Assembly (NCBI GenBank): GCA_021292105.1
Contig: CM037864.1
Coordinates: 8,174,635 to 8,238,634, forward strand
DNA from: Anadara kagoshimensis
Lineage: Eukaryota > Mollusca > Bivalvia > Arcoida > Arcidae
Reading direction: 5' to 3'
Length of the DNA: 64,000 nucleotides
Positions within the stretch are counted from its first letter, which is position 1, and each line of letters opens with the position of its first letter. A model generated the notes under the pieces. It saw only the letters and a list, made by a program, of their open reading frames with translations. It was not told where the DNA came from and searched no databases. A program made the position numbers and the translations under genes. Positions 5,202-60,022 of the stretch are shown here, piece after piece.

Positions 5202-5384
5202 ATATGTTTGAAATAATCATCAAAGCAAACTTCTTGATTAATTTTTGGGAAAGAATTCATCAAATATACCCAATTAGCAAAATGGTGTCATTTGCCAAAG
5301 TAAAAAAGAAAACAGTTTCTTTAAAAATTGTACATTGAATAAAGTGCAACAATAGTGTTTGCCCTCGATTTTATGAAATGCGCC

Positions 5385-5895
5385 CAATTCCATTGAATAA
5401 AGTGGAACAATGGTGTTTTGCGCCCAATTCCATGGAATAAAGTGGAACAATGGTGTTTTGCGCCCAATTCCATGGAATAAAGTGGAACAATGGTGTTTTG
5501 CGCCCAATTCCATGGAATAAAGTGGAACAATGGTGTTTTGCGCCCAATTCCATGGAATAAAGTGGAACAATGGTGTTTTGCACTCTTCCATGGAATAAAG
5601 TGGAACAATGGTGTTTTGCGCCCAATTCCATGGAATAAAGTGGAACAATGGTGTTTTGCGCCCAATTCCATGGAATAAAGTGGAACAATGGTGTTTTGCA
5701 CCCTTCCATGGAATAAAGTGGAACAATGGTGTTTTGCGCCCAATTCCATGGAATAAAGTGGAACAATGGTGTTTTGCACCCTTCCATGGAATAAAGTGGA
5801 ACAATGGTGTTTTGCGCCCAATTCCATGGAATAAAGTGGAACAATGGTGTTTTGCACCCTTCCATGGAATAAAGTGGAACAATGGTGTTTTGTGC
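5385..5895. repeat. Minisatellite, mixed 40-bp and 38-bp units
   Basis: The unit consists of a constant part (ccatggaataaagtggaaca, then atggtgttttg) and a linker that is either cgcccaatt (40-bp unit) or cacccttcc/cactcttcc (38-bp unit). About 12-13 copies are nearly identical. The long frames on both strands (for example 5274-6005 minus) are produced by the repeat and are not genes. Confidence 0.95.
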
Positions 5896-5983
5896 CTTAT
5901 TCCATTTTTTAAATATTGAGGCGGTAGTAAGCTCTGGAATATTTGCAGAAATTGGAGAACCATTGGCTTTTTAAAAACAGCAC

Positions 5984-17959: not shown

Positions 17960-20185
17960 GACAATGCACTCAAAACGTAATTGATGTTTTAGATACCCAA
18001 ATATTTGTGTAAAACTTCAATTTCAATAAAGTATTAAACAAAGTTACAACAGACCCGATTTAAATGTTTTCCTTCATTTGAACCGAAAAAAATTATCTTT
18101 TTCTTAAGCGGCAATCAAGACAAAAACTACTTCCGGAACAACTAGTTGTCAAGTGAACCAGTCAAGTTGCTAGGGAATAATTTTGTTGTATATTGTTTTG
18201 ACAATGGGTATTGTGAAATATATAATTCTTTCATTGATTTGGAAAAATTGTTAAAGTTTTACTCATGGATAAAATTGAATTTTTGTAAAACTTAACATTT
18301 ACTTCATTTGATGTTTAACATTTTTCACGTAAGAGCATTCGTCTCGATTTGACAGTATTGTTTTCGATCTTTTTTTGCATATATGATTCTGTAGGGAGTA
18401 ATTCTTGATCTGCGTGTATACTCGTCTGTACTTCAAACGCATTGTTTCAAACTTAAGATTTGCCTCATTAGATGTTAAAATTTGCGTTAGATTCGAATGC
18501 CTTCTTTGCAATACGCTGCATTGCTGAAGATCTAGGCGTTTTCCAGAAATATGCCCTTTGGGAGGAGACCGAGAACCATTTCATCGTCTGCATACTTTCT
18601 GAAAATCAAGGTTTTAGTACTTTAAACGCCTGATTGAGTATTGTTTGAACAATTTGATGACAGTCTTCTGTCACAAGTACAAGAAATATGCCCATAGAGA
18701 GGAGACAACAGAGGCGTCCAACCCTTGGTACAATTCGTTTAACGTTTGTGCTTCAAACGCCTGCTTGAGTAATGTTAGGGTAATTTTGCTGACAGTCATC
18801 TTTCGCAAGGACAAGAAATATGTCCCTGGAGAAGTTAAAATAGAGAATGTTAAACCCATTTAGTTTGGCTGTATAGTCCATCCTTGGTCTCCATATTCGA
18901 ATAAAGTTAAGGTTTTCAGTTTTTTTTGTACTTCAACTTCAAACGCCTGATTGAGTATTGTTTGTACAGCTAAACTTTAGAAATTTTAGAAATTGGTAGT
19001 AAAATGGCTAAGATTGCGTAAGAAATACACACCAAGACGTATAATGTTGTTAAGTTATTGCGAAATTTCCTGGGGTTAATTGAGAAAACGTGAAAACCAA
19101 TTTAACTGCCAAAACAAATTATCTTCTTTGTTGTTTGAAAATATGATTAAATTCAACTACAAAATGTTTTCTGAAAACGTTCATTCATAATTTCTATCTT
19201 TGGTAATTAAAGATGAAATTTATCGGCAATTTTGAAATTACATTTTCCCCAAAGGATTTAAAGATAATTTCAAGTTTAATCTTCTAAACCAAAACACTGC
19301 AATAAATAAACGAATTCAAATTTTAACGGCTTTTCTCTATCCTTTTGAAGGGCGTGTTACATTATGGCAATGAATGTATACATTCATCAGATATAATGAC
19401 TGTTATTTGACCTAAACTAATAAATTTGAGAGAGGGAGAGACAGAATTAATGGTATTTTACGACACAGTCAAAATTCTTTCACTTTGGAGGCAGTCAGCT
19501 CTAGAAATGTGGGGGGGAACCAGAGTGCCCGGAAAACACTTACGTACCATCATGTGCAAACTGACAAACTTTCTCACACTAGGATCTGCCTGATGGGGGA
19601 ACCGAACCTACGCGGTGAGAGATGATAACGTGACCTGTAAGTTCACGCAGGTAAGCTCACACTTTGGACGATTCGGCGACGGAGGGCCGAGAGAAGGGGG
19701 GGGGGTTGATAACAATTTTGATTGTTTATAAAACTAGCTTACTATTGTTATTTGTAGTGATGAATTTCTTGCAGTCTTTTATTAACAAACAAAAATCCAA
19801 ATTTGCTTTGTTTTATGGAGATCGCTTATTCATGGAACTAGTCGATTTGTTAATACAGTCAAACCCGTCTATAAAGACCACCGAAGAGTACAAATAAAAT
19901 TGGCCTTTATGAGCAGTTGGTTATTATATACAGGTTAAATAGCATGAATAACTAGAAATTGGAGTAAATTTTACTGCCCTTTAGCACCAGGTGGCCCTAA
20001 TGTAGAGGTGTTTTTCATTAAGGCAGGTTTGATTATAAAACATTTTTCTTTCATTATGTATTTCAGACTTTAGTGGCAGAGACGTTAGTTTTAGCAAAAA
20101 CTCACGGTTACGTGGAAAAAATAGAAAGTGAATTAGAAGAGGAACTTCAACAAGATTTTGACAAACCACAAGAAAGATTGGGAAG

Positions 20186-41300: not shown

Positions 41301-44300
41301 TCATGACGTCATTAAGATTGTGGGCGTGCCTTATCGATAATGCTTGGAATGTTAGTTTTTGAAAAATCAATAAAATTATGCAAACATTTCAGCTTGACAA
41401 ATTGAGCTAATCTATTCAAACAAAAACATACATGACTATGCCTAAATTACAATTCTAAAAGCAAAGTGAAAGACAATGCCTTTTAAAAATCCATTGAAAT
41501 TGAATTTGCAAATTTAGCTGTGTGAAACACATTGGCACACAGTAAAACTTTTACTTTAATGAAATAAAAGGGGTGATCTATATATGTGTTAGATTTTTGT
41601 GAAAGAATGACCCTTCCAAAGCGCCGGCTAACAAATGACATAACTTCTCGCAGCCTTTAGTACGCGACGAGAATACAATTAATTTGACAATTTATTGAAA
41701 ATAATTTGAAGTGGTAACAAGAATTCCTTAGGTACACCCGCAGAAGAACGTATACATGTGTTGTATCGCTGAGGTATCAAACCATAATCGAAAAAACATA
41801 ATGTTTAAGACCGCCAGTCAAAGCCTTGTGATTTTTGATGCTCTACCATTCCAGAAAGTACCGTCTCAATGTTAAGAGGAATAATATGGTATTATTCATT
41901 ATACTCATTTTTAAAACCAACTATCAATCCAAATATCTGTCATCCTCAGATGTAATTTTAATCTATAGCAGTTTCATCTCACATTATCTATTTCTGTTTA
42001 TATTCATTTATCTTTCACAGGTGGCGAAGGAAAGGATTTGAAGTTTTCAAAAGCAAATATTGTTTATTAGCAGTTGTCGTCCTTTGTATCACAGATTGTG
42101 CGCTAGTGTTAGGGGAGCTTACTCTAGATTTACACAAAGTTAAAGGTAAAGTATTTTGACATTAATATCTTAAATAAATAATTATGATGATTAAACATCC
42201 CTGTATTTTTTTATTTGAAGACAGTTTAATCACTGAAAAGCGTGAGAAAATTAGAAATCGTCGCTTACTGAAGGTCGGTACTTTTCTCTCGACAGTCCAG
42301 TCTGCTCCATCAACCCAGAACTGACCGCCTGGATATAATTGACAAACATGACATTGGTGTTAAACACCCTCTACCCCACTCATACACCAATCATAATTAC
42401 CATTTGATGATCGAGAGATATAAATATTGTTTTTGGCCAATTGGTAAAAATATATATTCAAGAAAGAAGGTTTTGAAAATATTTATTCATCAAATATTCG
42501 AATTACACAAGATGCATATGAAATGACGTGATGCTCTTCTAAAAGAGGTTACTTCAGAAGAGACTTTTAAAAAGCGATGTCCCGTGTCACGGCAGGACTA
42601 AAGAATCCTCAATGCACATTGCCCTAAGCGCACTGCAAAAGTCGGATTTTCTGCCACTTCATTCATAGCTGATGACGTCTCGATATAAGTGAAATATTCT
42701 TGACGGGGGCGTAAAACCCAAATCAATCAATGAACCAACCAATCTTCTGAAGAAATTTAAAAAACCCGTTGGTATTTTTTATTGTAGTGACATTGGATGA
42801 TACAGAAAAATTAACCAACTCAACAGAAGCTTTCTTAAGTAAAATGAGACATTTATATAAAAATCTAGAGGGTAAACAACCCCAGGAGTTATATGACTTA
42901 ATATTAGCAGCAACAATAGTTTGGAACAATACAGAACAAGTGACGAGTTATGTGAGTGATAAAAACAATAAATCGAATACCAGACATAGGAGAACATTAG
43001 ATAAGTCAACCGGAAGTACAATGACAGACAATAATTCCCAGGGTTCAATACAAGAGGATGCATTTATTGAAGAATCTCATTTAAATAAGCATTCCATTCA
43101 AGAGGATATAGCTCACGCTTTTCATCTTGCTAGTATCGCAATTCTTGGAATAATAGTGTTTGAGGTGAGTATGGCAGATTTTGATAAAAATTTTATATGG
43201 CGTTCCATTAGCAAAACGGGGCCCAAGAGCAATCCCATCGTTATGCAGGAAACAGCATTACAATTTGCAATACAGAATCGCACGGAATTTTATGGTCCGG
43301 TTTTCTACGCTTCTAATGTTTTAAAGAAAGAAGAACTATACATGTTGATTGCACTTTTAATTATTATTGTGCTCCAAGGGCCCTTTTTGCATATGGATGG
43401 TAATATGTGCATATTAGATTTCTATAAGAACAAAATACGTTTTAAGGTATTTTTAATATTTGCATTATAGAATAAGCAATAACTGGATATTAGATAAGTG
43501 GAATATTGAGAGCTCTTAGGAAAAGGTCATCCACATATTACATTTCAAGGTAGTAATCATCAAAAACAAACATACTTATCAATGTCCGAATCTCAATCTA
43601 GAGGCAAAGTAAAAACTAAAAAGTTAGGTTAGACACGTGAAGTGCCACCAGGAAAGTGAGACCGGATGCTCCGGAAGGTTAAGAACCTCCTGTTTTGCTA
43701 GTAACACCCGTCACGTCTGTAATCAAAATTGTGTGAAAGTAACATGAAATTATGGGACGTCAAAAATATCTAGGGCAATCCTGGACACAGAGACATCAGA
43801 CCTATTAAATACTGTGATGACAAACATAAAACCTTTAATTAATTTCTTATAAAAGATTTTAACTTTTTTATCAATTTTGTGCTGATACAATATTTTTATT
43901 CTGTGACTAGAACAAGGTTTGCCGAATTGAATACAGGCATAAATAAAAACAGTATATGGTGTGAAAATAAAACATAACAACAATGGTGTTTAATCAAAAC
44001 CTGTTTTGTACTCTGTCGGGGCACCTGACCTTACTTCCCTATTGGAAGTTCACATATTGAACTAAAATAACCAGTTTTTGTTTTGCTTTGGGATTGTAAT
44101 TTAGACATGATTTGTTATGATTGTGTTTAATCATAGTGAAGTGGCGTTCTTCGATGTTTTGGTGTACTTCAAACTTGTTTTTTATACACAGTTCGGCTTA
44201 CTTTAGATACATTGCGTTGGCGGTCATACTTCATAACCAGCTGTTTTGATCTTTTGCTTTACTATACGACAAACATGGATCTAATTGAATAATTTGTGTA

Positions 44301-47300: not shown

Positions 47301-50300
47301 CATCTTTAGAATAATCATTATAAGTCTGGATTTCTGTTCCCTGTCAAAACCACAATCCAAAAGCAAAGTAAAAACTTTGAAAACTGGTAATTTGCAAATT
47401 TTCTCAGGTGAAACGAAGTGCTCCGGAAGGGTAAGCACCTGTCTGGAAACCTGCACGTGCCATTTATGTAATTAAAATCTATACTACTTTGAGATGTTAA
47501 TTATATTCAGGATAATTGAATACAGAAACAGCATACTTATCAACAATATTGTGATAACATCCAAGATAAATTTTGCGGGTCTTGATAAGCCGAGGCTTGC
47601 AATATTCCTTAGTCAGCAATAAAATTGTAAATAGCTTGTTTTGTTGTATAAAGTTCCCGTTGCGGAACAAAATTTACCGTAGCATGTCAGTTCCATTGTT
47701 TAGGTTTTCAAAAAGCACTAATACCAAACATATATATAATATATATTTCAATATCGAAAGTTAGTGATTTTATAATCAGTGATCTCAATACCTCTTATGA
47801 ATGTTTTATTTTAATGTTAATCTTGTTTTATTTCAATTATTTTTCTTTGATAATTAGTTCTTTCGCGCCAATGGTTGCTTTCTCTTTTTCTATATATATA
47901 ATTTTTTAAAAGCTACGATAAATAATTGTACAAGAAAGGAATCGTCAGAGAGATAGATTAAGAGTCACCATGCCGTGATGTGTCCAAAACAAGTCACTGT
48001 TAAGGTCGTCTATAGGGTCTTCTCATTGATATAAGGCTAACCTCGAAGATAAATTGATGTCTGGCCTGTCAAGTACCAATATCTGTGATGTTTGCTATAC
48101 GATTGCTGTTTGAACTGTGACTGACAGAGTGACAGGATACTGAATGCAATATCTAATCATTCTAAAGAAGGCGATTGTTTATACATGTTTTTGTGTAATT
48201 TAGTGTTTTGTTTTCAATAACAAAGTGGCTTTGTTAGAGTATCGGGTCTCAGTAATTTAATATCTTTGGATCTAAGTTTAACTCTCTATTATGAACCATT
48301 TTTTGTTACTGATATTATTTTTCGATGAAATGTTAAGTGTAAATATTCCCATAACTGCGCAGGAAACGTAATAATGCTAAAATTTTACTGATAGTCCCAA
48401 TTCATATTTTCAATGTAATCTGTTGAATTTGGTATTTTTGGAAAATCATCATTTGTTACAAGAACGCTTGCCTGATTGTTGATATAAGGATTGACGCTTG
48501 TTTTTAGTCGTTCATCAATATATGAACTATAAAGGAAGGTTTCGGCAAATCAACATTAAAAACAAACGTATTCAGTGTTTTGTATAGTAAAATAATATTT
48601 ACAAAAAAAATATGAAATGACAGAACAAGAATCCCACATGGGTCGTAGTCAAAGGATGATCACCGCTAAGGTTATCTAAAGGTCATTTATTGACATAAAG
48701 AATTATATAGAAGATAAATTAGTGTCTGGCTTGTCAAATGACAATATTTAATGTTGTTTGCTATAATATTGCTACTCCTACTGTGATTGAAGAGAATGTT
48801 AAAGAACTTAAAATTTTTATTAATGATTCTTGAAAAATAACGCTAATATATCAAATCCATGTTCTAGCCAGACAGGAGGTGCCTTCCCTTCCCGTCTCAG
48901 TTGAAATTCGCGTGTTTAACCTGATTTTCCAGGTTTCTTAGATTTTTACGTTGCTTTTGGAATTGACAAGGTATCATCTCTGTGTTTGATTTTGTTTACT
49001 TTCTTGTATCATAATTGTTTACAAAATAACAATGACGTTCTTTTTATTTACAAGAGTGCTTTTTTTACTTTAGTATTATTTTGTTAAATGATGTGTTTGA
49101 GATATTTATTGATTTTTTATTTTTATTTTTTTTCTTATCATGATTTTTGCCATAAACAACAATAAATATTGAAACTTGGAATAAGATGTTCGACATCAAA
49201 AACAAACGAAACTGATTCATGTCCAAATCACTTTTCAAAAGAATCAAAATAAAAGTTTTTTAAAAATTTAGCAAAATAATTTAAACACGCAAAGTCAGTG
49301 AGGCCGGGTGCTTCGAAAGGGTACCGTGGCGACGTGTGTAGTCAAAATCGAGAAATAAAAAGACCATGGAACTATGCGGTTATGGGATATATGATAATTT
49401 AGGAAATAGAGACATCATACTATTCAACAATATTATGATAACGTTCACATCCCTATATTTATTTATAAGTGATCTGCTTTGTTGTAGTGGAAACTATCCC
49501 TACAATAGCGTATTAAGAGAAAATAATAACATTTGAGTTAAAATGTTTAAACAATAAAAATCGCAGTAACCGCAACCCAAACCATAATGAACATGGCCTT
49601 AACTGTATAACCATGAGATATGTGGTTATTTTGTGTCATTTTAGAACACGTCTGCACTTCTGTAGAACTGTTGAGATTACAATCTAAATACTTGACAGAA
49701 ACATGACCATATGTCACATCGAGGATATCAATTTTTGCTTCCTGTTTCTCTTGTATGTTTTAATATAATACAAAGTAAGTTTTACCGAATGCCATTATAA
49801 CTAAGTTGATTACCTCTGAATATTTGATTTTATCTCTTGTTTTGATAGCACAGTGTGATATGATATGATGTCAAGATGCTCAGTATTGTGGTAGAAAGAC
49901 GTATCATGATATGATACGATATGATATGATATATAAATGATCTAACATTACTTAGAAAGATGTATGATGATTTGAAATGATATAATATGAAAATATGTGT
50001 CACCCCTATCTAAATGTGTAGATGCTCCCATTTTTGTTGCAAGATTTATGGTGACATGTGATATTAAATGATATCATATGATATTATATGGAATAATATA
50101 CAGGCTTAAATCTATCTAAATAGGGCAATAAAACGGTCGATAAACTTCTGAAATCACAATTTTTAGTTCATCCAATTTTAGGAATCCATATATTTCATCA
50201 CTTACTTGATATTCAAAGCAGTAACCTAGGTAACCTTTCTGAATACATTATTTGACATACTTTCTTATCTTTTAAACAATTTATCAAAAAACGAAACTTA

Positions 50301-53300
50301 AAACAAAACCAATATAAATAATTTACAAATATCCAACATTGACAAACGATATATCACTGGAAAATAGTTAATAAAAAGGCTCAAATATTATTGATTTAGT
50401 CTAATGACATGAGGAATGTATCACAATCGTGAGTTTCTGAGTGTCACATTTTTATGTACTAAAGATAATATTTCAGGTTGTTTTGACTGTTGTTTTACAA
50501 AGTTTGCATAAAATGTTTCATTTAGAGTTTGAACAGCAATCATATAACAAATATCAATAAATATTTGACACACATAAAATTAAATTATATTTAAAAAAGG
50601 TATGACAAAGCAATCCTTATATCAATAGTATGACCACTATATGTGACATTAAACTAGACTTGTTCTGAACGATAACTGTTCGGTTCTTTTCTACGATTAT
50701 ATAATTCTTGAGTGTAGCTGAACATAATCAAAGCTCAGCGTCTCAAAAGCACAACAAAATTTATTTGCCATATATGTATTCATGATTTAACTTTATTTCA
50801 AATAACAATATTGAGTAAATATATTCGAAAGGCGCATATTACAGATTTTAGTTCTTTTTTACCAGTGGTAACAGTGCATGTTACCTTATCGCAGTTGATC
50901 TGATGTATATATAACCAATTTCACGATTAACAAGACATGACTGTATAACCTGTGTAAGTTGAATGTTAATGTGTCAGTTTCTCCAGTTTCTCTATGTACT
51001 TTTGTTTGTCTTGTGAGATAAGTTTCTCTGTACTTGACAGAAACATGGCAACATGTCACATCGAAGATATCAATGTCTACTTCTTGTTTCTGTTGTTATA
51101 CAATGTATGTTTTATCGGAGGTCACACAAAATCAGTACTATGTTTCAAACACTATTATCCAAAACAAAAAAAAACTAATCAGTATCAAAATGACAATTCC
51201 AAGACCAAGTGAAAAAATGGAAAACGGTCCATGTAAAAATCACCAAAGGAAAAGTAAAAACCTGACAAATTAAGTTATACTCATCAGGAAAGTAAGGAAG
51301 GTGTTCCGGAGAAGATTGAACCTCCTGTTAAGTATCAAAAAGTATAAATAAATGTTCTAGTACTTGTTTGCAAAATGCTTGCTTATATGATATATCAAAA
51401 ACAACTAAGCTTTGCTTAATCCTTCAAAGTTTTGACTGAGATGGATTTGGTAAAATACAATTTGTGCTTCTATTTTTCTCATTTTAACATCAAAACAATA
51501 TTTGGATTTCAACAATTTTTGTTCGAGCTCTACTGATATGGAATTTTATTTCTAAACGACCGTCTAGCTAGAAATTAATTAAAAATTAAAACAGGTTTTG
51601 CAAAATACCACATCATTTTTAAAAATCCATTTTGATTCTGATTCAAAAATTCAAACAATCAAATTTTAGGAACTTGGATGTATGCCGTTATGATATGATA
51701 AAATTCAACATGCAGATTGAAGTTTATCTTACAGGCCATAAATGATACATGCATTTCTAAGAAAGCATTTATTTGCATGTCATCTATTGCAGCATAACCA
51801 ATGCCTTGATTGCAGATATTCAATCACATATTTGACATCAAAAACAGTAACCCGAGCAATCTTTTATAATATATCATCTGCCATCCAAACTCATCTTTCA
51901 TACAATTTATCAAAAACGAAATTTGAAGCCAAACCAATACATGGATATATATAATTCATTTGTAAATATATATATCAAAATGATAAACGATAACACAACA
52001 TGAAAAATATCCAAGTTCAATCAACTTTAACAATATTCATCAAGAATTATATGTTACAATTTTCCAGTACTCTCTAGTGCAAAAGACTGTTTTATATTTT
52101 AAAACAGTTCATATTTTTAAATAAGACTTTGAACAGAAACTGACATTGTGCATTAAACATTTCTAATAAAATTGTACAATTAGAAAAAACGGTTTGATTA
52201 AATCCTCTTTGGCAACCATGACATTTGATATTAAATTTTAGAAACCAAATATTGAAAACTCTCTATGATATTTAAAAATTCGTCATTATATGAGTGAACT
52301 CTCTGCCCTAGGTTGTTTCCGAGGATATCACAAATCGGAAATATACTGGGTTTTTTTTTAATAATTTCGTGCTAGTTAAAAATTGAAAAAAAGTTCAACA
52401 ATTATAATATACTCTCTCAAGCAAGGTACAAATATAATTCCTTGGCTCAATTTGGTTAAATATATTTTGGTCCTTTGGATGTTTTTCCAACCCCTTAAAC
52501 TTATTTTAGTTTCACAGTTTTGTCTAAGCAGTTTTGATGAGGAATTGTATTCCGAAACGACCGCCTAGTGCTGTAAAATTAACACTTATATGATATGTAA
52601 TACATGTATATAGTTTTAACTAGATATAGGCACTTCAAAAGTCTTTATGATTGTCATCTCATTATCAAAACTTATCTTGGCTCATAGTTCCGTAGTTTAA
52701 TTTTCGATTGTGTCACCATTGGCGAGTAAAACTATTTAAAAAGGACGTCCTTACTTCCGGAGCACCCGGCCTCACTTCCCTGATAGAGGTGCATGTGTTT
52801 TTATTTGTTAGCCAGTTTGCATAGTTTTTAATTTGCTTTTGGGATTGCCTAGTGCTGTAAAATTAACACTGCTATGATATGTAATACATGTATATAGTTT
52901 TATCTAGATATAGGCACTTCAAAAGTCTTTATGATTGTCATCTCATTATCAAAACTTATCTTGGCTCATAGTTCCGTAGTTTAATTTTCGATTGTGTCAC
53001 CATTGGCGAGTAAAACTATTTAAAAAGGACGTCCTTACTTCCGGAGCACCCGGCCTCACTTCCCTGATAGAGGTGCATGTGTTTTTATTTGTTAGCCAGT
53101 TTGCATAGTTTTTAATTTGCTTTTGGGATTGCGATTTAAACATGGATCGGTATGGTTGTGTCTTATTGAGTTATAAATCATGTATTTGATTTTCACAAAA
53201 AGTTATCGGTCATCCTTCCATGCCTTCAAATTCTTTAAGACAAGGAAAATTTAGTATGTCTTTTATATATTTCAGACACTGTTGAAGGCATTGTGTGCTG

Positions 53301-56300
53301 GCTGTGCATTTTTCCATCGAAGACTAGAGGTATGATGAAAAAAATTCATTCATTTTCATTTAAATTAACATTGATGTGATTTGTTAATGCAATCGCTTAT
53401 GGAGATTGAAAATAAGTTGTTTTTTTAATTATTTGGTGTACCATTCAGCTTATTATGCAAGAAAGTACTTCCATATTACGGTTTTATTGGAGATGTCTAT
53501 CCAGATTGTCACGCTGTGTGTTTATACGTGCTTTAAGATAAAAAGGTAAAAACGCTTATCGATATTTGCGAAAAGACTGAAAGTAATTGCCTAATGAAAC
53601 ATATGTGACAAATTCACAAGTTCTTGAGTACAAATCAAAACGCGGCTAAATCACCACGGTTTATTGATCTAATGACGATGCATATTACAGATTATTTGCA
53701 ACGGACATTGAACATTTAAGAAATGATTTTAGCCCAAATACTTCATGAATGTAAATACTTTTATGGTATTTATTTATTTATTTATTTATTTATTTTCAGG
53801 TTTTCGATGCATTTATAGTCATAGTGTCTTTTGTTGTAGACACAACATTATTGATAGTTTTACCAACATATAATACCAGAGATTTTGTTTTTATTTTGGC
53901 ATTTTTGTTGCCATGGAGAGTAATACGGGTGGTTGATAGTAAGTATAGAATGAACAACTATTTTGATTTCAGTGTATATAAATTATACTTAAAAAAGACC
54001 ATCATATCTTAAGTTGTGTAAAGGCTTACGATACTTGCTGCAACATAGTATCGAAAGTTTTCTCAAAATGAATATCATATGATTTTTTTATTATTTAACA
54101 CAAGATACCAAACCAAATATAAGCTGTTCTTAATGATATATTTTACAAAATCTTTCCTCAAAAATGTTGTTATCTATCCCGATAGCCGAGAGGCGCAAAC
54201 GTTGTTTTGCGTATCGTAGCTCCTCTAACCGCTTAGATTCAATTTCTACTCGGTAAGTGTTAATTTTTTTTAGTTTGCTTGCTGCTAGATGTCGGTGGTT
54301 TACATTCGCAACCTAGGCACCATCCCAAAATGTACTGTTTCGATACAAGTAAAAGAGTATCGACGTAAAACACTATTATTCCACAAAATTGCATTTCTTA
54401 TAAACCCAAGTAATAAAGAGGATATACTAACCTGTGAACGAGTTAATAAATTCCGTTTCCTTATTAGCATTTATTATGTATTAGAAAATAGAAACGAAAT
54501 ATGAAAATCCATGAAAATTACATCATAAAATTTGACATTCAATATCAAAATACAAACGATTGATTAATCTTCACATCTTACATTAAATATGAACATTGTT
54601 TTTTATAACTTTAAGAAGAGCTACGCTATAATTAGGAAAATACGTGCTTTTTCTTTGTTTTAAGTAAGTCTTTGTCGTTTACAGGCTTGGTGGTAGCAGT
54701 AAAAGACCACGAACATTTCCGTTTAAAACTTGTATATAGCAGGAAAAAGAAAGTACAGAATACTTTACGTGATACAGAAGTCAGACTTCAAATATTTAAG
54801 GTAATACATTTAGACGGGAAGTGCTGACCCTTCCGGGGCATCCGGCTTCGGCTCTATGGTGAAAGTTCACTTTGTTAACAATTTGCCAGTTTTTTTTTAA
54901 TTTTTACTTTTTCTTTTTGCATTGTGGGTAAGACACTTATCAGTTTGTTTGTGTTTGATGGAACATCTGATTATCAGATTTTTAACAAGAACATTGGGTT
55001 CAAGTACATTGTTCAAAATAAAGAAGAACTTATTCTCTACAATGTACGTGAATCTTAGTGTCAACTTTAGCATTCATCGTAAGCATTAAATGTAAGCGTC
55101 TTTTAAAAGAAAAAGCTATGGGCTGTTAAAACGTTGTATAAGTAAATTTGATATACGTGTGTCCTTCTGCCAAACACTTTCTTATTATACTCTCTTACAC
55201 TTAGCGTTGAGACTAAATGTTTAGGGTTCTCAATTGCCGTATTTGGCGTCTACTTGATCTATGAGTATATATTAAAACATAATTAAAAGAACGTGTCATT
55301 TTAGTTTTAAAGCCGAAAAACTGGTGCCAGTTGTTCGAAGCTTGATTAGTTTAATCAATTGATTAGTCAAAATTTGAATTTTGTTACAGTTCACATATAC
55401 TGTGAATATAATGGTGAAATTATCGAAAATGAATAAAATTCCATCAAACTAAAGCACATTGTCAGAAAACTATCAGTTTCATTCTGAGATGTTGATTTTT
55501 ATCGATGTCTTTAGTTTTTGTTAATCCTTGATTAAACTTATCAAGCTTAGAAAAAACTGTGTCCTGGTGTCCCGTATACTATTGTCTAAATTTCCTGCTA
55601 GTTACAATTTAAAAATATTCAAACTAAGGTATACTCCCTCATGCAAAGTATTTCCTTAGCTATATTTTGGTCCTTTGGGTTTCTTTTCAAAATCTTGAAT
55701 AAAGTTTTGGCGCCTAATTTTGGTCCAAGCTCGGCTGATGAGGATTTGTATTCCTAAACGACCTTCTAATGCTGTAAAAATAAAACTGGTTTAATATGTT
55801 ATTGTAATCAAAAATAAACATACTAAACCATGTACGAAACACAATCCAGAAGCAAAGTACAAACTGACAAATTAACTATTTTATGGGGACCTCCAAATTT
55901 TGGGTAGGATCTGCATGGATGTTCTTCGACGTTCTTAAAACAACTCTCATTTCTTTAACTCATGTTAGTTGCACTGTTGGTAAATGAATCAAAAGATGAA
56001 AAATAAACAAATAAAGATCTCACACAGAAAGAACATTTTATTAATTTAATTTCCCCATTAATGATTCGAATGGGCTATTTTTTTTAATGCTAAATGATTT
56101 TTAATCCCCACCTAGTGTCAATAAATCCATTTTGACGGTGTTCAATTTCAGAATTAATTTATCTTTTGATTAAGGATTCTTCACACATAAAATCATATCT
56201 ATTTACAAATATTATTTGAGAGCTATTGAATGTATTGTCAATCTAACTTTATTTTCATGTTATTGTTGAATGCTGTATGTTTGCCAGAATGCTAACTGAT

Positions 56301-59300
56301 TGGATTCCCAACAATGGCGCTATCCGACAATGACAAACAAACAATCATTTACTGTTTTTCGTGGTATTAGTGGAATTGCTTTATAGCCTGTGTAACAATA
56401 AATCAAATAATTGTTTATTCTACACATTATTGTAAAATCAATGAAAATTCAGAAATTTCAGACAATTTAACAGAAAATTTGGATAACCTCATCTATAGCT
56501 TTTCAATTACAGTATCAATGCAACGCTCTGAAGAGACTGTGTTTGTCAGAGGGTCTGGATGAGTGGAAAATCGACCAATGTGTTAAAGCAGAACAAAAAT
56601 TCCAGCGTGAGTATCAACATCATCTTGTAGATCGAAAATATTCCACTTACGCAAGACTAGAAAATAACACATCTATAAAAAGATCATATTTCGCCGATTT
56701 AATACTCCTAGAAGGAGGTATTTTTAACATAAAAATTTACCCAAATTACCAAAACCTAAAATTATTGATGAAATGAACTCACAGCCTCTTATCAAATATA
56801 AATAATGATGTAAACATAGGTGTGATTTTTATCCCCAGGTAAAATTCTTTTTCAAGTTAAAATTTGAAATTTCTCAAAAACTGAGGTATACTCTCTCATG
56901 CAAAGTATTTCCTAAGCTAAATTTGGTAAAATATATTTTGGTCCTTTGGGTAGCTTTTCAACATCCTCAAAATGATTTTGGTTTCATAATTTTGGTCCAA
57001 GCACTACTGATGAGGAATTGTATTCCGAAACGGCCGTCTAGTGCGTTAAAATTAAAACTGGTATGTAATTATATAACTTATAAATACGAACAGTGTGTAT
57101 CTGTATTTCCTTCGAGTACGTATGCAATGGTTTGTAACACATGTATTTTATCTAGGACTTTATTTTTTTAGGAATAAAATATATTTTTATTCATAATTAT
57201 CAAATTTCAGATGTTTCAAAAGGTTAGGGTTTATTTTAAACGGTATTTAGGGCTTTTTGCCATTGTGTCATAATGAAAATTCATACCTCTAGGGCAAAAA
57301 AGAGCATTTGCCTAAAATGGTCTCGTTTGAATTGTATATACCTTAACAGTGTGGTCAAAATGGTGTCAAAATCGTCATTTTGGTCCACATGTCTCTTAAA
57401 ACCAGTAGGTCACCATATGTCGTTCTTTCTCGTTTCTTTAGCAATGGAGTAGGTCACCAACTTCTATTTTAGAGATCGTAACTAGATCAAGACAGTACAT
57501 TAAAATTATGGCCAATTAACCTTCTTTCTCACCACTGTATTTGCACTTAAATTGTCCTGATAACTGCATGTTTACTTGCAATATAACTATCACAATCTCC
57601 CAATCACTGCTCTTAGTATTGATTGGAAGGACATTTTTACACACAATCTTAATGAAGGATCAAAATCCGTTTATACTAATGGATGTATCTGGATTATCGA
57701 TAGTATTCTTTACATAAGATACAAAGTTGTATTTTAGCAATGAAGAGATTAAAATCGGTTACTCAGCCAGTTGTATCTGAGCAACATGTCAATTTACGGA
57801 GGGCTCCAAATGAGGGAGAGCATTTTGTCAAAAAATTTTGTTTTTTGCATCCGTATATAACATATTCATATTTGTCACATGGCAATTCTTGCAGCCCCTA
57901 TTTTTAGTAAGTTTATCGATAAGTTTGTTGTATCTGAGGGACATGTCAATTTACGAGGGCTCCAAACAAGGGAGAAGATATTTTTGTAAAAACTTCTTGT
58001 GTTTTGTATCCGGAATAGCAAATTCACAATAGTCATATTACTAGTCTAGCAACTGCTATTATAGTCAGTTTGTTGTATCTGAGCGACATGTCAATTTACG
58101 AGGGGTTCAAATGAGGAGAAGATAGTTTCTGTCAACAATCTGGGGGGCAATGAAATTGAGTAATGGTGTTTTACGACTTTGTCAAGATTCTCGCATATAA
58201 TGAGGCAGTCAGATCAGACAAGTTTAGTCCTTTGACAAGCGAACTGAAAAACTGAAGCTAGGATCTGACAATGTGCAACAGGTGCCCCTTTTGGGGAGCG
58301 CGGTGAATTTGTAAGAGTGTAAGTGTTGTTGCGGAATAATAACCAGTATTGATTGGAATCCATCTAATCTATACTTAGAATAATTGTGTATGCACTTGTT
58401 TGCAATTTTTTGTATCGGGGTCACGCCAATGTAAGAAAGCTTAAAATGAGATACTCTGTGAAAAATTAAGAAAATATTTTATGTAGCAGAACCTGTTAAG
58501 TGGGTAGTAAAACTCTAATGATGACAAGCGTGATTTTTTATTACACAAGAACCATCGATGTGATACACAAAGACGTTTGAGCTACGTGATAGACCTTACT
58601 CATTATGCGGCAAAACGCTTTCCTCATAGTAAGCCAGCGGTCTTCTAACAAACGCATACTCCAGTTAAATAAATTTCTAAATGTCTTGTTTCTAAAAATC
58701 GATGAAATACTGAGTAAAGTCCAATATATTTAGTATCCTGTAACATGAGAGACAACTCTTATAAACCGTTGGGTCAATGGATTGAAAAATACAAACCTAA
58801 AAAACAACATTGTGCCTACATTACTGTAGGAACCACTCTGTTTGTGACAGTGAAATACTCTTCATATCCATAGAAAATCTAATAAATTTGAGCAAAGATT
58901 GATATTTTTCACTTAATTGTACCTAGTCGTAACAGGAAATCTGTATGCGCATCCGCGATTAGCCGAGAATATATCTGCACAGGGTAAAACGTTAACGCTA
59001 TTGGGATTTAACATGTTGAAAACCAGGCGAATGGCGGCTTCTGTTGCGCATATGACGTAAAACGTCAACAAGGACATCACTTCCGGTGTATACTTCACCA
59101 TTCTCGCCATGTAAAACCCCTATAACGCCAGCATTTCCTCTCTATAGACATTTTTTATATGACAATTGCGGATACGCATACAGATTTCCTGTTACGACTA
59201 GGTACAAGTAAGTGAAAAATATCAATCTTTATTCTTTATTTGTTTTTCTATGGATCTAAAGAGTAATTCACTGTCACAACAGAGTGGTTCCTTCAGTAGT

Positions 59301-60022
59301 GTTACATTTTCTACTTTTCCATTATTGCATTCAAATTTAGTTTTGAAATGCATTTTTCTGTTCGTGACATTTATACATGTATCATTACAAGACAAAATTA
59401 TTTGAAAAACTCTAAATGTGGCCAAATGCATAGTGAAAAGTTGAGCTATGAACAGCAAAACACTGTTCCTTTTCAAAGTTTATAGCTTTTCGATAACACT
59501 AATTTCCCATTGTTTTATTGGATTTTTATATTTCCGCATCGAAGAATGGGTGGGGGTTATACTGGTATTCTATCCTTCTGTCGGAAACAAAAATTCTCAC
59601 CAACAACTAAACACAGCTGTTTGAAATTATATGCGAGTTCAAAAAGAGGTCCAATGCCGTAAGTGCCGATTTCACGTCTGCCAGACATCTACTTCCTGTT
59701 TACCGACTTAGTTTACTTTTCGACATATACGGTTAATGGTTGAAGTTAAAAACAGGCGTATACTTATAGCTCCAATTTCTTGATTAAATTCTATGTGTAT
59801 TCGTTATATTTTTCAGCGAGCCTTGGTAAACGGAAATATCGGATGAAGTTAGACCAATCGACACTTTCCTTACCAAACCAGAAAGACAGCGGCCATTCAT
59901 CACCGAGAGCATCTTTGCCCTTCTTGGATTTCCATGGGTTACGGTTCTTGAATGGAAATTCGAAATACAACGAATCGAATGGAACGATAACGGATATTGA
60001 GGAAGAACACGAGAGAGGGTGA
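13440..60022 (+). CDS. HVCN1-like: Hv3-type voltage-gated proton channel (whole gene, 9 exons)
   Basis: Join: 13440-13478, 20067-20185, 42021-42145, 42788-43164, 53276-53329, 53800-53938, 54685-54800, 56513-56606, 59817-60022. The 422-residue product (numbered from the Met at 13440) should be a plasma- or endomembrane proton-conducting channel made of one voltage-sensor domain, probably dimeric through its C-terminal coiled coil. Landmarks, with human Hv1 equivalents: D78 (D112, selectivity), E85 (E119), D89 (D123), H207 (H140, zinc), E220 (E153), K224 (K157), D241 (D174), D252 (D185), W277 (W207), R278 (R208), R281 (R211). Departures: Leu275 replaces R205, Pro276 follows it, Asp284 replaces N214, there is no His in the S3-S4 loop, and the S1-S2 loop is about 100 residues longer than in human. 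All introns are GT-AG and junction phases agree (0,2,1,0,0,1,0,1). No stop or frameshift interrupts it, so it reads as an intact gene. Loss of the first S4 arginine matches the published Aplysia Hv3 paralogue. Confidence 0.88.
14860..15120. repeat. Degenerate tandem repeat, about 65-80 bp unit
   Basis: 'cggcattattgacactgtcaataaac', 'gagaatgggcttatt' and 'ggcccctta' recur four times in order. Confidence 0.65.
15590..15910 (+). repeat. Dispersed repeat family G, long copy
   Basis: It includes the 5' part ('gtgaagaccctcaaaacgtt', 'accctggatatatttgacgt') and the 3' part ('gagcaaccggtctcactgtc', 'gtgaaggtcctcatgtttaa'), as at 24460-24760. The 83-codon minus-strand frame across its 5' part comes from the repeat. 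Confidence 0.75.
16511..16779. repeat. MITE family A copy
   Basis: The left end is 'gacagacctgtcaaaagttt' and the right end 'cgttaacttatacctgtact' plus 'gta'. An internal segment ('cggcagctgttatctattct') is duplicated. Confidence 0.75.
17896..17959. repeat. (TCA)n-(TTA)n microsatellite
   Basis: About eleven tca/cat repeats pass directly into about eight att repeats. Confidence 0.95.
18590..18970. repeat. Degenerate tandem repeat, about 120-150 bp unit
   Basis: 'ttcaaacgcctgattgagtattgtttg' or variants occur near 18625, 18750 and 18940. The segments between the first two share 'tgacagtc-tctg/ttcgca-agtacaagaaatatg'. Confidence 0.7.
19440..19655 (-). repeat. SINE-like element
   Basis: On the minus strand a tRNA-like head with a B-box-like 'ggttcggttcccc' is seen, followed by a body ending in 'gtcgtaaaataccatta'. 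A related 3' part occurs at 58150-58220 ('taatggtgttttacgacttt'). Confidence 0.55.
19854..20035. repeat. MITE family C copy next to exon 2
   Basis: The left end is 'tacagtcaaacccgtctata' and the right end 'ttaaggcaggtttgatta'. It stops about 30 bases before the first base of exon 2, so the branch-point region of intron 1 lies in or beside it. Confidence 0.8.
20067..20185 (+). CDS. HVCN1-like: Proton channel exon 2 (cytosolic N-terminal helix)
   Basis: The exon reads from acceptor TTTCAG|ACT to donor GGAAG|GTACTC, encoding residues 14-52 plus two bases of codon 53. The peptide begins TLVAETLVLAKTHG and continues as an acidic, charge-rich helix (EKIESELEEELQQDF), ending ERLG-R. It leads straight into the basic stretch before S1, as the pre-S1 region does in Hv1. 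Support comes from the exact phase match (2) to exon 3, 21.8 kb downstream, where the two bases AG join G to give Arg53. The donor is followed at +4 by a long (CT)n run. Confidence 0.8.
20188..20232. repeat. (CT)n microsatellite directly after the exon 2 donor
   Basis: More than twenty ct repeats start two bases after the donor GT and end at 'ctctgttggtg'. Confidence 0.95.
21588..21616. repeat. (GAA)n microsatellite
   Basis: About nine gaa repeats lie inside one array unit. A shorter, decayed version is at about 22373-22395 in the next unit. Confidence 0.9.
21633..21717. repeat. Foldback hairpin inside the array
   Basis: 'gtcatgtgctgtttttgaat' is followed by two copies of its inverted form, 'attcaaaaacagcacatga'. 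It is the same cassette as at 10483-10592. Confidence 0.85.
22412..22496. repeat. Foldback hairpin inside the array, second copy
   Basis: Essentially identical to 21633-21717 and at the same relative position in the next unit, so it was copied along with the unit. Confidence 0.85.
23290..23326. repeat. Poly(T) tract
   Basis: An uninterrupted run of about 36 T inside an array unit. Confidence 0.9.
24460..25212. repeat. Family G element with inverted 160-bp terminal arms
   Basis: The + strand arm at about 24598-24760 ('cacgtggcggatgtagctag' to 'ttagtatgtttgtt') is matched by its reverse complement at 25048-25212 ('aacaaacatacttatccatg' to 'gctagctacaaccgccacgt'). The roughly 290-bp spacer is AT-rich and non-coding. 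Upstream (24460-24597) lies the extra 5' part of the family. It is the best candidate for the parental, foldback-type form of the many single-arm copies in the window. Confidence 0.75.
25855..26015 (+). repeat. Dispersed repeat family F copy
   Basis: Contains 'ggtatactacttctgcctcatgca', 'attggtccaagcac' and 'gaggaattgtattccgaaac', in the family order. Confidence 0.75.
26850..26990 (+). repeat. Dispersed repeat family G copy
   Basis: 'ccgagcacccggtctcactt' and 'ggtggaagttaacgtgttgg' match the family. Confidence 0.75.
27008..27056. repeat. Poly(T)-rich tract
   Basis: T runs broken only by single g or a bases, directly after the family G copy. Confidence 0.9.
27195..27600. repeat. Degenerate tandem repeat, about 50-65 bp unit
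   Basis: 'aacagattggaattttaacgttaacgaac' and decayed versions recur about seven times. Confidence 0.6.
28008..28335 (+). repeat. tRNA-derived SINE, full length
   Basis: The head 'gtggtagctcaattggtaga' (A box) and 'gtgggttcgaaccc' (B box) form a tRNA-like Pol III promoter. The body continues to 'gcgcaacgcac', 'gctggcgatgtctcgatata' and the tail 'gacgttaaacaccattact'. It matches 30598-30897 across its length. Confidence 0.88.
28795..28995 (+). repeat. Second SINE family copy
   Basis: A tRNA-like head ('ggtggctgggtggtaaaagt', 'cctctcggttcgac') leads to a body with 'tcagaactgacaacctagat' and a 'cgtaaaacactgct' tail. Related 3' ends lie at 1145-1265 and 42270-42385. Confidence 0.65.
29296..29575. 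repeat. Inverted-repeat element B, shortened copy
   Basis: 'gtttgtgacagtgaataac' at the left and 'gtaattcactgtcacaaa' at the right are inverted. The interior ('gcgcatatgacgtaaaacgt', 'gacatcacttccg') matches 58822-59300. Confidence 0.75.
30598..30897 (+). repeat. tRNA-derived SINE, full length
   Basis: The head is 'gcggtagcttagttggtaga' with B box 'gtgggttcgatccccggcc', then the same body and tail as 28008-28335. The A and B boxes are better preserved here, so this may be a younger copy. The minus-strand frames across it are not genes. Confidence 0.9.
31495..31640 (-). repeat. Dispersed repeat family G copy
   Basis: 'aaaaacaaacatactaatcc', 'aactgacaagttaggttaga' and 'acttccaccagggaagtgat' are the reverse complement of the family arm. 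Confidence 0.8.
32240..34060. repeat. MITE A cluster expanding into a 110-bp satellite
   Basis: A recognisable MITE A (left end near 32240, second left end near 32335, right end near 32540) is followed by tandem repeats of its right-end sequence: 'gtgttaaactttcgacaggt', 'ctgtactgtatgtctctgca', 'cggtcactagctacacatgt', 'cgcggtcactcggcag'. The landmark gtgttaaa lies at 33141, 33251, 33362 and 33472 (step 110-111), with older, less regular copies before and after. The open frames here (Val-Leu-Asn-Phe-Arg-Gln-Val repeats) are by-products. Confidence 0.9.
33501..33671. repeat. MITE family C inserted in the satellite
   Basis: 'actgtcaaacccgccataaa' at the left and 'ctttatagataggtttggct' plus 'gta' at the right interrupt the 110-bp array. 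Confidence 0.75.
35075..35300 (+). repeat. Dispersed repeat family E copy
   Basis: 'gaggggtatatagaaattac', (tctg)n, 'ataaaattgtgtcctgacca' and 'taactttca' occur in family order. Confidence 0.7.
35625..35830 (+). repeat. Dispersed repeat family E copy, tandem to the previous one
   Basis: 'gagggggtacacaggaacca' and the following blocks match 35075-35300. The preceding roughly 200 bp (around 35395-35600 and 34860-35050, 'gacattggttgtagggatca') is also duplicated, so a unit of about 540 bp is repeated. Confidence 0.75.
35895..36130 (-). repeat. tRNA-derived SINE, 5'-eroded copy
   Basis: The complement of the SINE body ('gatggcattatacagcag', 'atgccgag', 'tcttgggccagacccgg') is clear. The tRNA-like head is mostly lost. 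Confidence 0.8.
36346..36740. repeat. MITE family A copy, enlarged
   Basis: The left end is 'agtacagacctgtcgaaagt' and the right end 'gttagcttttgacatgtact'. The interior holds about 170 extra bases with a repeated 'ggacatttgagcgaca' motif. Confidence 0.7.
37840..38330. repeat. Degenerate tandem repeat, about 65-80 bp unit
   Basis: 'gaaaactacggaagcccttaatggccaatgat' and 'aataattcatgggtttctt' recur about seven times. Confidence 0.75.
38390..38540 (-). repeat. Dispersed repeat family G copy, diverged
   Basis: 'aaaagcaaaaactttgaaaa' and 'tctaggagggtaagcac' match the complement of the family arm. Confidence 0.6.
39911..40572. repeat. MITE family A interrupted by element B
   Basis: The left end 'gtacagacctgtcgaaagtt' and the right end 'cagtgttaaactttagacag' belong to one MITE A copy. 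Element B (40050-40511) sits between its two halves. Confidence 0.8.
40050..40511. repeat. Inverted-repeat element B, complete and nested
   Basis: The left end 'ctactgtaggaaccattgtg' followed by 'tttgtgacagtgaaa' and the right end 'tttcactgtcataaacacaa' followed by 'tggttcctacagtag' form inverted repeats of about 36 bp. A related full copy is at 58822-59300. Confidence 0.85.
40573..40930. repeat. MITE C fragment, tandemly duplicated
   Basis: 'gaccacctgcccataaaggtcattgttactgct' and 'aaagacaggcttgactgtaatttgatttggcaaa' occur twice, about 165 bp apart, as the right half of MITE C plus flank. Confidence 0.85.
40931..42020. other. Last part of intron 2, nothing recognised
   Basis: AT-rich, apart from a short family G-like fragment near 41420-41480. 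It leads into the exon 3 acceptor. Confidence 0.4.
42021..42145 (+). CDS. HVCN1-like: Proton channel exon 3 (transmembrane segment S1)
   Basis: Acceptor TTCACAG, donor AAAG|GTAAAG. It encodes residues 54-94 plus parts of 53 and 95. A basic start (WRRKGFEVFKSK) precedes S1 (about residues 66-90), whose core is LCITDCALVLGELTLDL. This is closely parallel to human Hv1 S1: D78 sits at the D112 position that sets proton selectivity, E85 at E119 and D89 at D123. The only candidate selectivity residue is therefore intact, which argues for proton conduction rather than a silent relative such as TMEM266. Confidence 0.9.
42146..42787 (+). other. Intron 3, 642 bp, with two SINE fragments
   Basis: Donor GTAAAG, acceptor TATTGTAG. 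A second-family SINE 3' end lies at about 42270-42385. A fragment of the first SINE family lies at about 42575-42740 ('cccgtgtcacggcaggac', 'tgacgtctcgatataagtga', 'cgggggcgtaaaaccc'). The latter ends about 50 bases before exon 4. Confidence 0.75.
42788..43164 (+). CDS. HVCN1-like: Proton channel exon 4 (long S1-S2 loop and most of S2)
   Basis: Acceptor TTGTAG|TG (phase 1), donor GAG|GTGAGT (phase 0), residues 95-220. About 110 residues form an extracellular S1-S2 loop, against roughly 15 in human Hv1. The loop has three N-glycosylation sequons (N105, N141, N176), a dibasic RHRR at 160-163 fitting the furin pattern, a predicted helix-rich first half and a duplicated SIQED (181-185 and 197-201). 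S2 starts near AHAFHLASIAILGIIVFE. H207 matches zinc-binding H140 of human Hv1, and E220 matches E153. A long loop here is known from some gastropod Hv channels. Translation past the donor continues open for about 100 codons in the intron, but that extension has no family similarity. Confidence 0.9.
43550..43830 (-). repeat. Dispersed repeat family G, long copy
   Basis: The complement of the whole family unit is present: 'aaaaacaaacatacttatca', 'gtgccaccaggaaagtgaga', 'gctccggaaggttaagaacc' and then 'aatcctggacacagagacat'. Confidence 0.8.
43985..45150. repeat. Direct duplication, unit about 0.7-0.8 kb, diverged
   Basis: 'tacgacaaacatggatctaattgaataatttgtgtaaaa' and 'gttgtcaagtactatatcttatatgattaatgtg' near 44270-44360 recur at about 44970-45075. 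Upstream, 'aatggtgtttaatcaaaacctg' (43983) matches 'aatggcgttttatcaaaatctg' (44812). A family G copy in each orientation (44010-44110 plus, 44590-44700 minus) lies within. Confidence 0.75.
46003..46245 (-). repeat. Dispersed repeat family E copy
   Basis: 'ggtcatgacacacctatgga', 'gacagtcatccaaa', 'gatatggcccggacacgatt' and 'ggtgattcctatataccccc' are the complement of 6787-7010. Confidence 0.85.
47335..47590 (-). repeat. Dispersed repeat family G copy
   Basis: 'aaaagcaaagtaaaaacttt' and 'gtgctccggaagggtaagca' match the complement of the family arm, and the 5' part follows to about 47590. Confidence 0.75.
48865..49460. repeat. Two family G copies in inverted orientation
   Basis: A + strand copy (48870-48985, 'caggaggtgccttcccttcc') faces a minus-strand copy (49215-49460, 'gaggccgggtgcttcgaaag') across about 230 AT-rich bases, the same arrangement as 24598-25212. 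Confidence 0.7.
49680..49800. repeat. Repeat pair with 51025-51130
   Basis: 'cttgacagaaacatgaccatatgtcacatcgaggatatcaat' is repeated with few changes at 51033. Confidence 0.8.
49855..50095. repeat. Interspersed (GATAT/GATATGATAT) repeats
   Basis: Many irregular copies of gatat, including 'gatatgatacgatatgatat' at 49908, are mixed with a roughly 80-bp partial repetition around 'agaaagatgtatgatgat'. Confidence 0.75.
51170..51310 (-). repeat. Dispersed repeat family G copy, diverged
   Basis: 'aatgacaattccaagaccaa', 'acctgacaaattaagttata' and 'aggtgttccggagaag' match the complement with many changes. Confidence 0.6.
51470..52590 (+). repeat. Two family F copies (51470-51600 and 52390-52590)
   Basis: 'tctcattttaacatcaaaac' with 'gaccgtctagc' marks the first. 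'atactctctcaagcaaggta', 'ttttggtcctttgg' and 'gaggaattgtattccgaaac' mark the second. The sequence between them is AT-rich with no recognised content. Confidence 0.7.
52563..53130. repeat. Young 284-bp tandem duplication
   Basis: The block 52563-52846 is repeated at 52847-53130. By eye I see three substitutions, two next to each other just after 'taacact' and one in 'agttttaactag' / 'agttttatctag'. Each copy contains the end of a family F repeat and a family G arm. Confidence 0.95.
53276..53329 (+). CDS. HVCN1-like: Proton channel exon 5 (end of S2 and S2-S3 linker)
   Basis: A 54-base exon, phase 0 on both sides, between acceptor TATTTCAG and donor GAG|GTATGA. It encodes TLLKALCAGCAFFHRRLE (221-238), closely parallel to the end of S2 and the S2-S3 turn of human Hv1. 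K224 sits at K157, and the FFH-basic-basic block matches the conserved linker. Three small or thiol residues (CAGC) replace a bulkier stretch. Because it is symmetric, skipping it would keep frame but remove the intracellular end of S2. Confidence 0.88.
53330..53799 (+). other. Intron 5, 470 bp
   Basis: Donor GTATGA, acceptor TATTTTCAG. A (tttat)/(ttta)n run at about 53768-53794 forms the pyrimidine tract directly before exon 6. The remainder shows nothing recognised. Confidence 0.8.
53800..53938 (+). CDS. HVCN1-like: Proton channel exon 6 (S3 and S4 voltage sensor)
   Basis: Acceptor TTTTCAG|GTT, donor GATA|GTAAGT (phase 1), residues 239-284. S3 reads VFDAFIVIVSFVVDTTLL, with D241 (D174) and D252 (D185). 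The S3-S4 loop is three residues longer than in human and has no histidine, so the second zinc ligand (H193) is missing. S4 reads FILAFLLPWRVIRVVD. The first gating arginine of the family motif is Leu275 (codon TTG), Pro276 follows, W277, R278 and R281 are kept, and N214 is replaced by D284. Only two S4 arginines remain, which should reduce gating charge. Aplysia Hv3, also missing R1, shows proton leak and weak voltage dependence. Confidence 0.92.
53939..54684 (+). other. Intron 6, 746 bp, with a SINE-like element
   Basis: Donor GTAAGT, acceptor TTTACAG. At about 54176-54385 a tRNA-like head ('ccgatagccgagaggcgcaa', 'ttagattcaatttc') is followed by a tail 'gtatcgacgtaaaacactatt'. Confidence 0.65.
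54685..54800 (+). CDS. HVCN1-like: Proton channel exon 7 (post-S4 and start of coiled coil)
   Basis: Acceptor TTTACAG|GC, donor AAG|GTAATA (phase 0), residues 285-323. The bases A+GC rebuild Ser285. LVVAVK matches the conserved S4 extension, with K291 at human K221. A heptad pattern then begins: L298, V301, K305, V308, L312, T315, L319 and F322 occupy alternating 3-4 spaced a/d positions. It continues into exon 8. In Hv1 this coiled coil makes the channel a dimer and couples the gating of its two pores. Confidence 0.88.
54801..56512 (+). other. Intron 7, 1.7 kb
   Basis: Donor GTAATA, acceptor AATTACAG. It contains family G arms at 54820-54960 (+) and 55805-55880 (-) and a family F copy at 55600-55795. 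The rest (about 54970-55590 and 55890-56510) shows nothing recognised. Confidence 0.7.
56513..56606 (+). CDS. HVCN1-like: Proton channel exon 8 (coiled coil continued)
   Basis: Acceptor AATTACAG|TAT, donor CAGC|GTGAGT (phase 1), residues 324-354 plus one base of 355. The peptide starts YQCNALKRLCLSEGLDEW. C326, L329 and C333 continue the a/d spacing from exon 7, so the coiled coil spans about residues 298-333. Two cysteines at core positions could form an inter-subunit disulphide, as has been proposed for C249 of human Hv1. The second half (KIDQCVKAEQKFQ) is charged. Family similarity is weak this far C-terminal, so support comes from the splice sites, phase and heptads. Confidence 0.8.
56840..57065 (+). 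repeat. Dispersed repeat family F copy
   Basis: 'ggtatactctctcatgcaaa', 'ttggtcctttgggt', 'tttggtccaagcactactga' and 'gaggaattgtattccgaaac' give the best-preserved full unit of the family. Confidence 0.8.
57760..58120. repeat. Tandem repeat, about 155-160 bp unit, three copies
   Basis: 'gttgtatctgagcgacatgtcaatttacgagggctccaaa' or variants occur near 57770, 57928 and 58073. Confidence 0.85.
58822..59300. repeat. Inverted-repeat element B, complete copy
   Basis: The left end 'tactgtaggaaccactctgt' and the right end 'acagagtggttccttcagta' are inverted. The interior has two opposed 'aacaggaaatctgtatgcgc' / 'gcatacagatttcctgtt' segments, so the whole element is close to self-complementary. The short minus-strand frames inside are not genes. 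Confidence 0.85.
59817..60022 (+). CDS. HVCN1-like: Proton channel exon 9 (C-terminal tail and stop)
   Basis: Acceptor TTTTTCAG|CG. C+CG rebuilds Pro355, and the frame ends at TGA 60020-60022, giving residues 355-422. The tail starts SLGKRKYRMKLDQSTLSLP and is rich in Ser, Asn, Lys and acidic residues, with possible basophilic kinase sites (RASL). No family domain is expected here, and I recognise none. Phase agreement and continuity to a stop shortly before a candidate poly(A) signal support it as the terminal exon. A further exon replacing it by alternative splicing cannot be excluded. Confidence 0.75.

Follow-up and report, generated by a model that had tools for sequence, protein, structure and literature searches.

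A putative proton-leak channel of the HV3 class with an altered S4 motif and hydrophobic gasket in Anadara kagoshimensis

The window analysed here, a stretch of 64,000 nucleotides of the bivalve Anadara kagoshimensis, contains a gene that most probably (we put this at somewhat under four in five) encodes an HV3 channel which lacks the first gating arginine of S4 (R1), has an altered hydrophobic gasket, and would provide a selective proton leak at rest with weak voltage gating. The assignment to the HV3 class, the unconventional proton channels of molluscs, is supported by the sequence. According to a review, the class is recognised by the S4 motif xPWRxxR, by an S1-S2 loop of very large size and by large intracellular domains, and a bivalve species can have as many as eight members (PMC10377628). 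Loss of R1 and the proline in S4 are already a published hallmark of HV3 channels, and although one sentence of the same review has R1 changed to lysine, its motif and other passages have leucine (PMC10377628). The window gene belongs to this published class, and what it adds is the gasket pattern, a convertase-type site in the S1-S2 loop, and a paralogue that lacks the second arginine, R2.

All exons of the gene model (Table 1) are open, with fitting phases and canonical splice sites, and the chain ends with a stop at 60022. Residues are numbered as in human Hv1, in agreement with the positions named in PMC10377628 and PMC11853527. Counted from its exon at 20067-20185 onwards, the predicted model would have 40 residues before the S1 exon and 138 after the Asp of the S4 exon. 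E153 and D174 are 21 residues apart, the same distance as in human Hv1 when counted from the sequences. The intron between the S2 exon and the S2-S3 linker exon is about 10 kb long (43165-53275) and carries, 5' of the linker exon, a tandem duplication of a 284-base unit (52563-53132, copies 98% matching); a minisatellite with about 13 copies of a 40-base unit lies at 5379-5905 of the window.

Table 1. Exons and loop motif of the HV3 gene, with positions in the window.
Feature	Position	Strand	Remarks
N-terminal cytoplasmic exon, probable	20067..20185	+	TLVAETLVLAKTHGYVEKIESELEEELQQDFDKPQERLGR; predicted from open frame and splice sites; phase fits S1 exon
S1 exon	42021..42145	+	Cys (42085-42087) in place of gasket residue V109; Asp corresponding to D112 at 42094-42096
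Exon of long extracellular S1-S2 loop and S2	42788..43164	+	Ile (43153-43155) in place of F150; H140 and E153 retained
R-H-R-R, furin-type consensus in extracellular loop	42982..42993	+	motif R-x-K/R-R
S2-S3 linker exon	53276..53329	+	TLLKALCAGCAFFHRRLE; K157 equivalent retained
S3-S4 exon	53800..53938	+	open; D174 and D185 kept; encodes VFDAFIVIVSFVVDTTLLIVLPTYNTRDFVFILAFLLPWRVIRVVD
Exon 3' of S4	54685..54800	+	SLVVAVKDHEHFRLKLVYSRKKKVQNTLRDTEVRLQIFK; present in L021-L026
C-terminal cytoplasmic exon	56513..56606	+	YQCNALKRLCLSEGLDEWKIDQCVKAEQKFQ; phase fits
Last coding exon, probable	59817..60022	+	predicted; ends with TGA; acceptor and phase fit

The exons differ in how far they can be followed through the genome. 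The first and the last exon of the model match only themselves, the S1 exon has six other matches (one of them weak, E 1.04) and further counterparts in L027/L028 and L029/L030, no counterpart of the exon 3' of S4 was found in L027-L030, and for the C-terminal cytoplasmic exon the only matches are in L021 and L022 (E 4.75e-4). In the PDB, a hand-assembled piece of the gene of 270 aa, with one surplus Val at one junction, had its best match in 5oqk (voltage-gated hydrogen channel 1, E 3.6e-8), followed by 3wkv (E 3.7e-6). Pfam gave no Ion_trans match for the window gene, only a chance-level one to ArfGap (E 0.36), and Ion_trans did match the conventional channel L031 of the same genome (E 1e-13); NCBIfam had no match for the window gene, and for L031 two at chance level. 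For the window, neither a tRNA scan (bacterial code) nor Rfam at gathering scores gave a hit, and no relatives of the gene were found among viral contigs.

The S3-S4 exon is bordered by the canonical splice sites ttttcag and gtaagt, and its S4 stretch FILAFLLPWRVIRVVD occupies 53890-53937. When it is aligned with human Hv1 on the S4 tryptophan (TGG), R205 is replaced by Leu (TTG) and L206 by Pro (CCA), R208 (R2, AGA) and R211 (R3, CGG) are retained, and Asp (GAT) takes the place of N214. S4 therefore reads L-P-W-R-x-x-R-x-x-D, which, with Leu at R1, does not match the Hv family pattern RxWRxxR and does match the HV3 mark xPWRxxR including its proline. Codons and alignment thereby confirm the first-pass annotation, which had claimed loss of R1, a proline beside it and Asp for N214. 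The exon is beyond chance, because of the match to Hv1 in the PDB and because the same kind of exon is found at ten other loci of the genome. The annotation had also considered an alternative exon that restores R1; none was seen in the window among the matches listed for three genome queries (the HV3 exon, the human Hv1 S3-S4 stretch and the L027 exon), each of which had a single S3-S4 exon there among its listed matches.

In the assembly (1.115 Gb in 36 contigs), where the best candidates were scored and locus counts are lower bounds, there are at least 11 S3-S4 exons of the HV3 kind, all on contig C8 and including that of the window gene, and at least one conventional Hv, L031 (C18:47577620-47578003). 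The 11 loci were assigned to seven gene types, namely the window gene, L021/L022, L023, L024, L025/L026, L027/L028 and L029/L030, counting L021, L026, L028 and L030 as second copies of L022, L025, L027 and L029 (78-98% identical in the printed DNA blocks). These four close pairs may be duplicates or unmerged haplotypes; compared by eye with L022, the loop exon of L021 has several single-base insertions. Upstream of the window exon, at distances of about 131 and 186 kb, are the S3-S4 exons of L023 and L024, respectively. L013 on contig C6 (E 3.72), one of the 12 matches of the HV3 exon, was dropped because it has no PWR motif, and from the 20 matches of the search that found L031 the rows of C18 and C8 were used, the remaining ones having E values of at least 0.109. 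The 14 matches of the L027 exon comprise the 11 HV3 loci, the conventional copy on C18 and two decayed copies of the S3-S4 exon, which have two stops each and lie beside L027 and L028 (C8:18857028-18857132 and C8:19517711-19517815).

All 11 loci on C8 have the proline before the S4 tryptophan and no arginine at R1, and xPWRxxR is complete in nine of them. The two that deviate are L021 and L022 (S3-S4 at C8:3857840-3857974 and C8:4815026-4815160), in which R2 is replaced by Gly (LPWGVIR, codon GGA in both copies). As R2 has been described in print as fully conserved, this type departs from that description and represents a natural test of the claimed indispensability of R2. The first-pass annotation had left open whether Pro and Asp are class traits or specific to this lineage. 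The proline is a class trait, being present at every locus and also described in PMC10377628, but the Asp is not, as it is found at one of the 11 loci and in one of the seven types, the window gene only. A literature search for N214D in connection with proton channels found no paper.

In a comparison of one sequence per type, D112, H140, D185, W207 and R211 are retained throughout the seven types, and R205, V109 and F150 are absent. The window gene itself retains D112, H140, E153, K157, D174, D185, W207, R2 and R3. Among the paralogues, D174 is replaced by Ala in L024 and by Gly in L026, and in L025 and L026 Ile stands in place of E153. The S1-S2 loop of the window gene has about 110 residues, with 112 before H140 as opposed to 15 in L031, both counted from a position after S1 that was chosen by eye in the case of L031. 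Histidine-rich S1-S2 loops occur in L023 (13 His), L027 (14) and L029 (12), where the histidines lie partly just before S2; these loops possibly serve metal or pH sensing.

For phylogeny, 117 hand-aligned core columns were used with one sequence per type, from the paralogues of this genome and human Hv1 only; one linker residue of L029/L030 was omitted, and S1 of L027/L028 is three residues short. Two unrooted maximum likelihood trees were computed, one under LG+G4 (1000 ultrafast bootstraps) and one under JTT+G4 (100 bootstraps). In both, the split between the seven HV3 types on one side and L031 and human Hv1 on the other has 100% support; within the HV3 set, support ranges from 39 to 100%. 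Within this sampling the window gene is thus placed outside the conventional channels, and together with LPWRxxR, the long S1-S2 loop and the retained D112, this split bears out the HV3 assignment made in the first-pass annotation.

No terminal branch in the HV3 set is longer than that of the window gene, which may have drifted in function. An alternative reading is that the gene is decaying and that its substitutions reflect relaxed drift in a partly redundant copy, with which the long branch, the private Asp at the place of N214, the intron of some 10 kb and the many paralogues would agree. Against it stand the open exons with their canonical splice sites and fitting phases, and the comparison with L023 over the four core segments, in which pN is 0.28 and pS 0.69; this reveals constraint, the strength of which is not readable because synonymous sites are near saturation, as is also seen with L022 and L025, where the corrected dS is infinite. 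Decay is therefore very improbable.

Another feature that may be relevant for a leak is the hydrophobic gasket, which consists of V109, F150, V178 and V179; leak has been reported for a more polar gasket and also for R205W (PMC11853527). In the order window gene, L021/L022, L023, L024, L025/L026, L027/L028, L029/L030, position 109 is C, N, N, N, N, S and A, and position 179 is I, V, M, C, M, T and T, while V178 is retained in all seven types. Position 150, the Phe of the S2 charge-transfer centre that is a feature of the Hv family and is described as conserved in HV channels (PMC10377628), is Ile in the window gene and Leu in the other six types and all ten other loci, and the S2 alignment is free of gaps between H140 and E153. 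Both V109 and F150 are retained in L031 and in human Hv1. Two of the four gasket residues are thus gone in all seven HV3 types, which is new as far as we could see; the available text of PMC10377628 has no mention of a loss of F150 across an HV3 set. Judged from these residues, the gasket changes are a possible second cause of the HV3 leak, and as the HV3 set lacks two gasket residues in addition to R1, the causes could be separated by mutants of R1, of the gasket and of both. The case is weaker for the window gene than for the types with Asn, because Cys and Ile are not strongly polar: Cys at position 109 is mildly polar, where the other six types have four Asn, one Ser and one Ala, and Ile at position 150 is still hydrophobic, so that the gasket may seal.

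How the leak could arise can be outlined from these changes. The channel would consist of one voltage-sensor domain, in which D112 serves as selectivity filter and two gating arginines are left, and a cytoplasmic C-terminal part. Without R1 there would be no R1-D112 bar at rest, and with a smaller residue in place of the aromatic plug, the dry barrier between the two vestibules would be weaker. Loss of R1 and change of the gasket would act jointly, as two closed-state leak routes are then present together, and protons would pass selectively at rest while voltage would gate weakly. Such a channel would load acid or equilibrate protons rather than strictly extrude them. By adding an acidic group to the inner end of S4, the Asp might draw protons into the inner vestibule or form a pair with R3. 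It can also be considered that the protein is a non-conducting voltage sensor, like TMEM266 or as an HV3 paralogue without conduction, which senses voltage and passes no protons. Several conserved residues are altered together in the window gene, and among the paralogues one type has lost R2 and others D174 or E153, but the full set of nine retained residues named above, from D112 to R3, and the two significant PDB matches, 5oqk (voltage-gated hydrogen channel 1) and 3wkv, speak against such a sensor, as does AcHV3 of Aplysia californica, which has the same S4 motif and conducts (PMC10377628). A non-conducting sensor is thus quite improbable, and a conducting HV3 channel is the preferred reading.

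The S1-S2 loop of this channel contains a furin-type consensus, R-x-K/R-R. Such a site, R-x-[KR]-R, is found in the loops of six of the seven types and ten of the 11 loci, as RHRR in the window gene and as RSKR, RKKR, RIKR, RQKR or RHKR in the paralogues; the loop of L024 has no such site and no Arg at all. The loops of L021 and L030 were read in part only, and some of the loop starts were chosen by eye. The site nearest to S2 ends 23-45 residues before H140. When the loops are shuffled, the motif arises in 0.2-8.1% of the trials for the six site-bearing types (1.0% for the window gene); the joint value of 2e-11 assumes independence, which is violated by paralogues, and the retention of the site amid loop divergence is therefore the better argument. 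On sequence grounds, furin-type cleavage may divide the channel into two chains. A further step would be to regard HV3 channels in general as convertase-processed two-chain channels, in which the filter in S1 is split from S2-S4 and which, with a gasket that is rebuilt (V109 to N/S/C/A, F150 to L/I) and in most types also more polar, would constitute a protease-licensed leak; this is a tentative idea and rather doubtful. Cleavage of the loop, if it takes place, would be an unusual route to the formation, and perhaps the activation, of a voltage-sensor channel. The review PMC10377628 contains no word beginning with furin, proteol or cleav, and a literature search on furin or convertases with proton channels or the S1-S2 loop gave nothing relevant by titles and the beginnings of abstracts.

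In the topology of Hv channels the S1-S2 loop faces the lumen, which is why RHRR was set aside as an RXR signal for ER retention. The loop of the window gene has four N-glycosylation sequons, which fit either a luminal or an outside loop. The protein might be an HV3 channel of intracellular membranes, across which protons would enter or leave acidic compartments, a plasma-membrane leak not being its task. Such a location would make sense in that a constant leak of the plasma membrane would presumably be costly, and several molluscan HV channels have motifs for intracellular localisation (PMC10377628), but on balance it is unlikely.

The closest known system is AcHV3, which has a closed-state H+ leak attributed to its altered S4 motif and a gating of about 60 mV per e-fold (PMC10377628). 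The proton leak proposed in the first-pass annotation is supported by this analogy (PMC10377628, PMC11853527), whereas its figure of three Hv genes for Aplysia is out of date, since seven putative ones are counted in the review (PMC10377628). AcHV3 and the window gene share LPWRxxR, with Leu at R1 followed by Pro, and a very large S1-S2 loop (PMC10377628, PMC11853527), and the window gene may differ in having Asp at the place of N214, AcHV3 being compared from its published description. TMEM266 (C15orf27), a non-conducting voltage sensor, has a related voltage-sensor domain and, as the review's account implies, lacks the selectivity-filter Asp that the window gene has, a comparison by description only. 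Human HVCN1 (PDB 5oqk) is 35% identical in the core alignment of 117 columns, gaps omitted, and unlike the window gene it has R1, V109, F150, N214 and a short loop. The conventional L031 has D112, H140, E153, D174, D185, W207, R2 and R3 in common with the window gene, and is unlike it in having R1, V109, F150 and N214, a short S1-S2 loop and the whole domain in one open frame.
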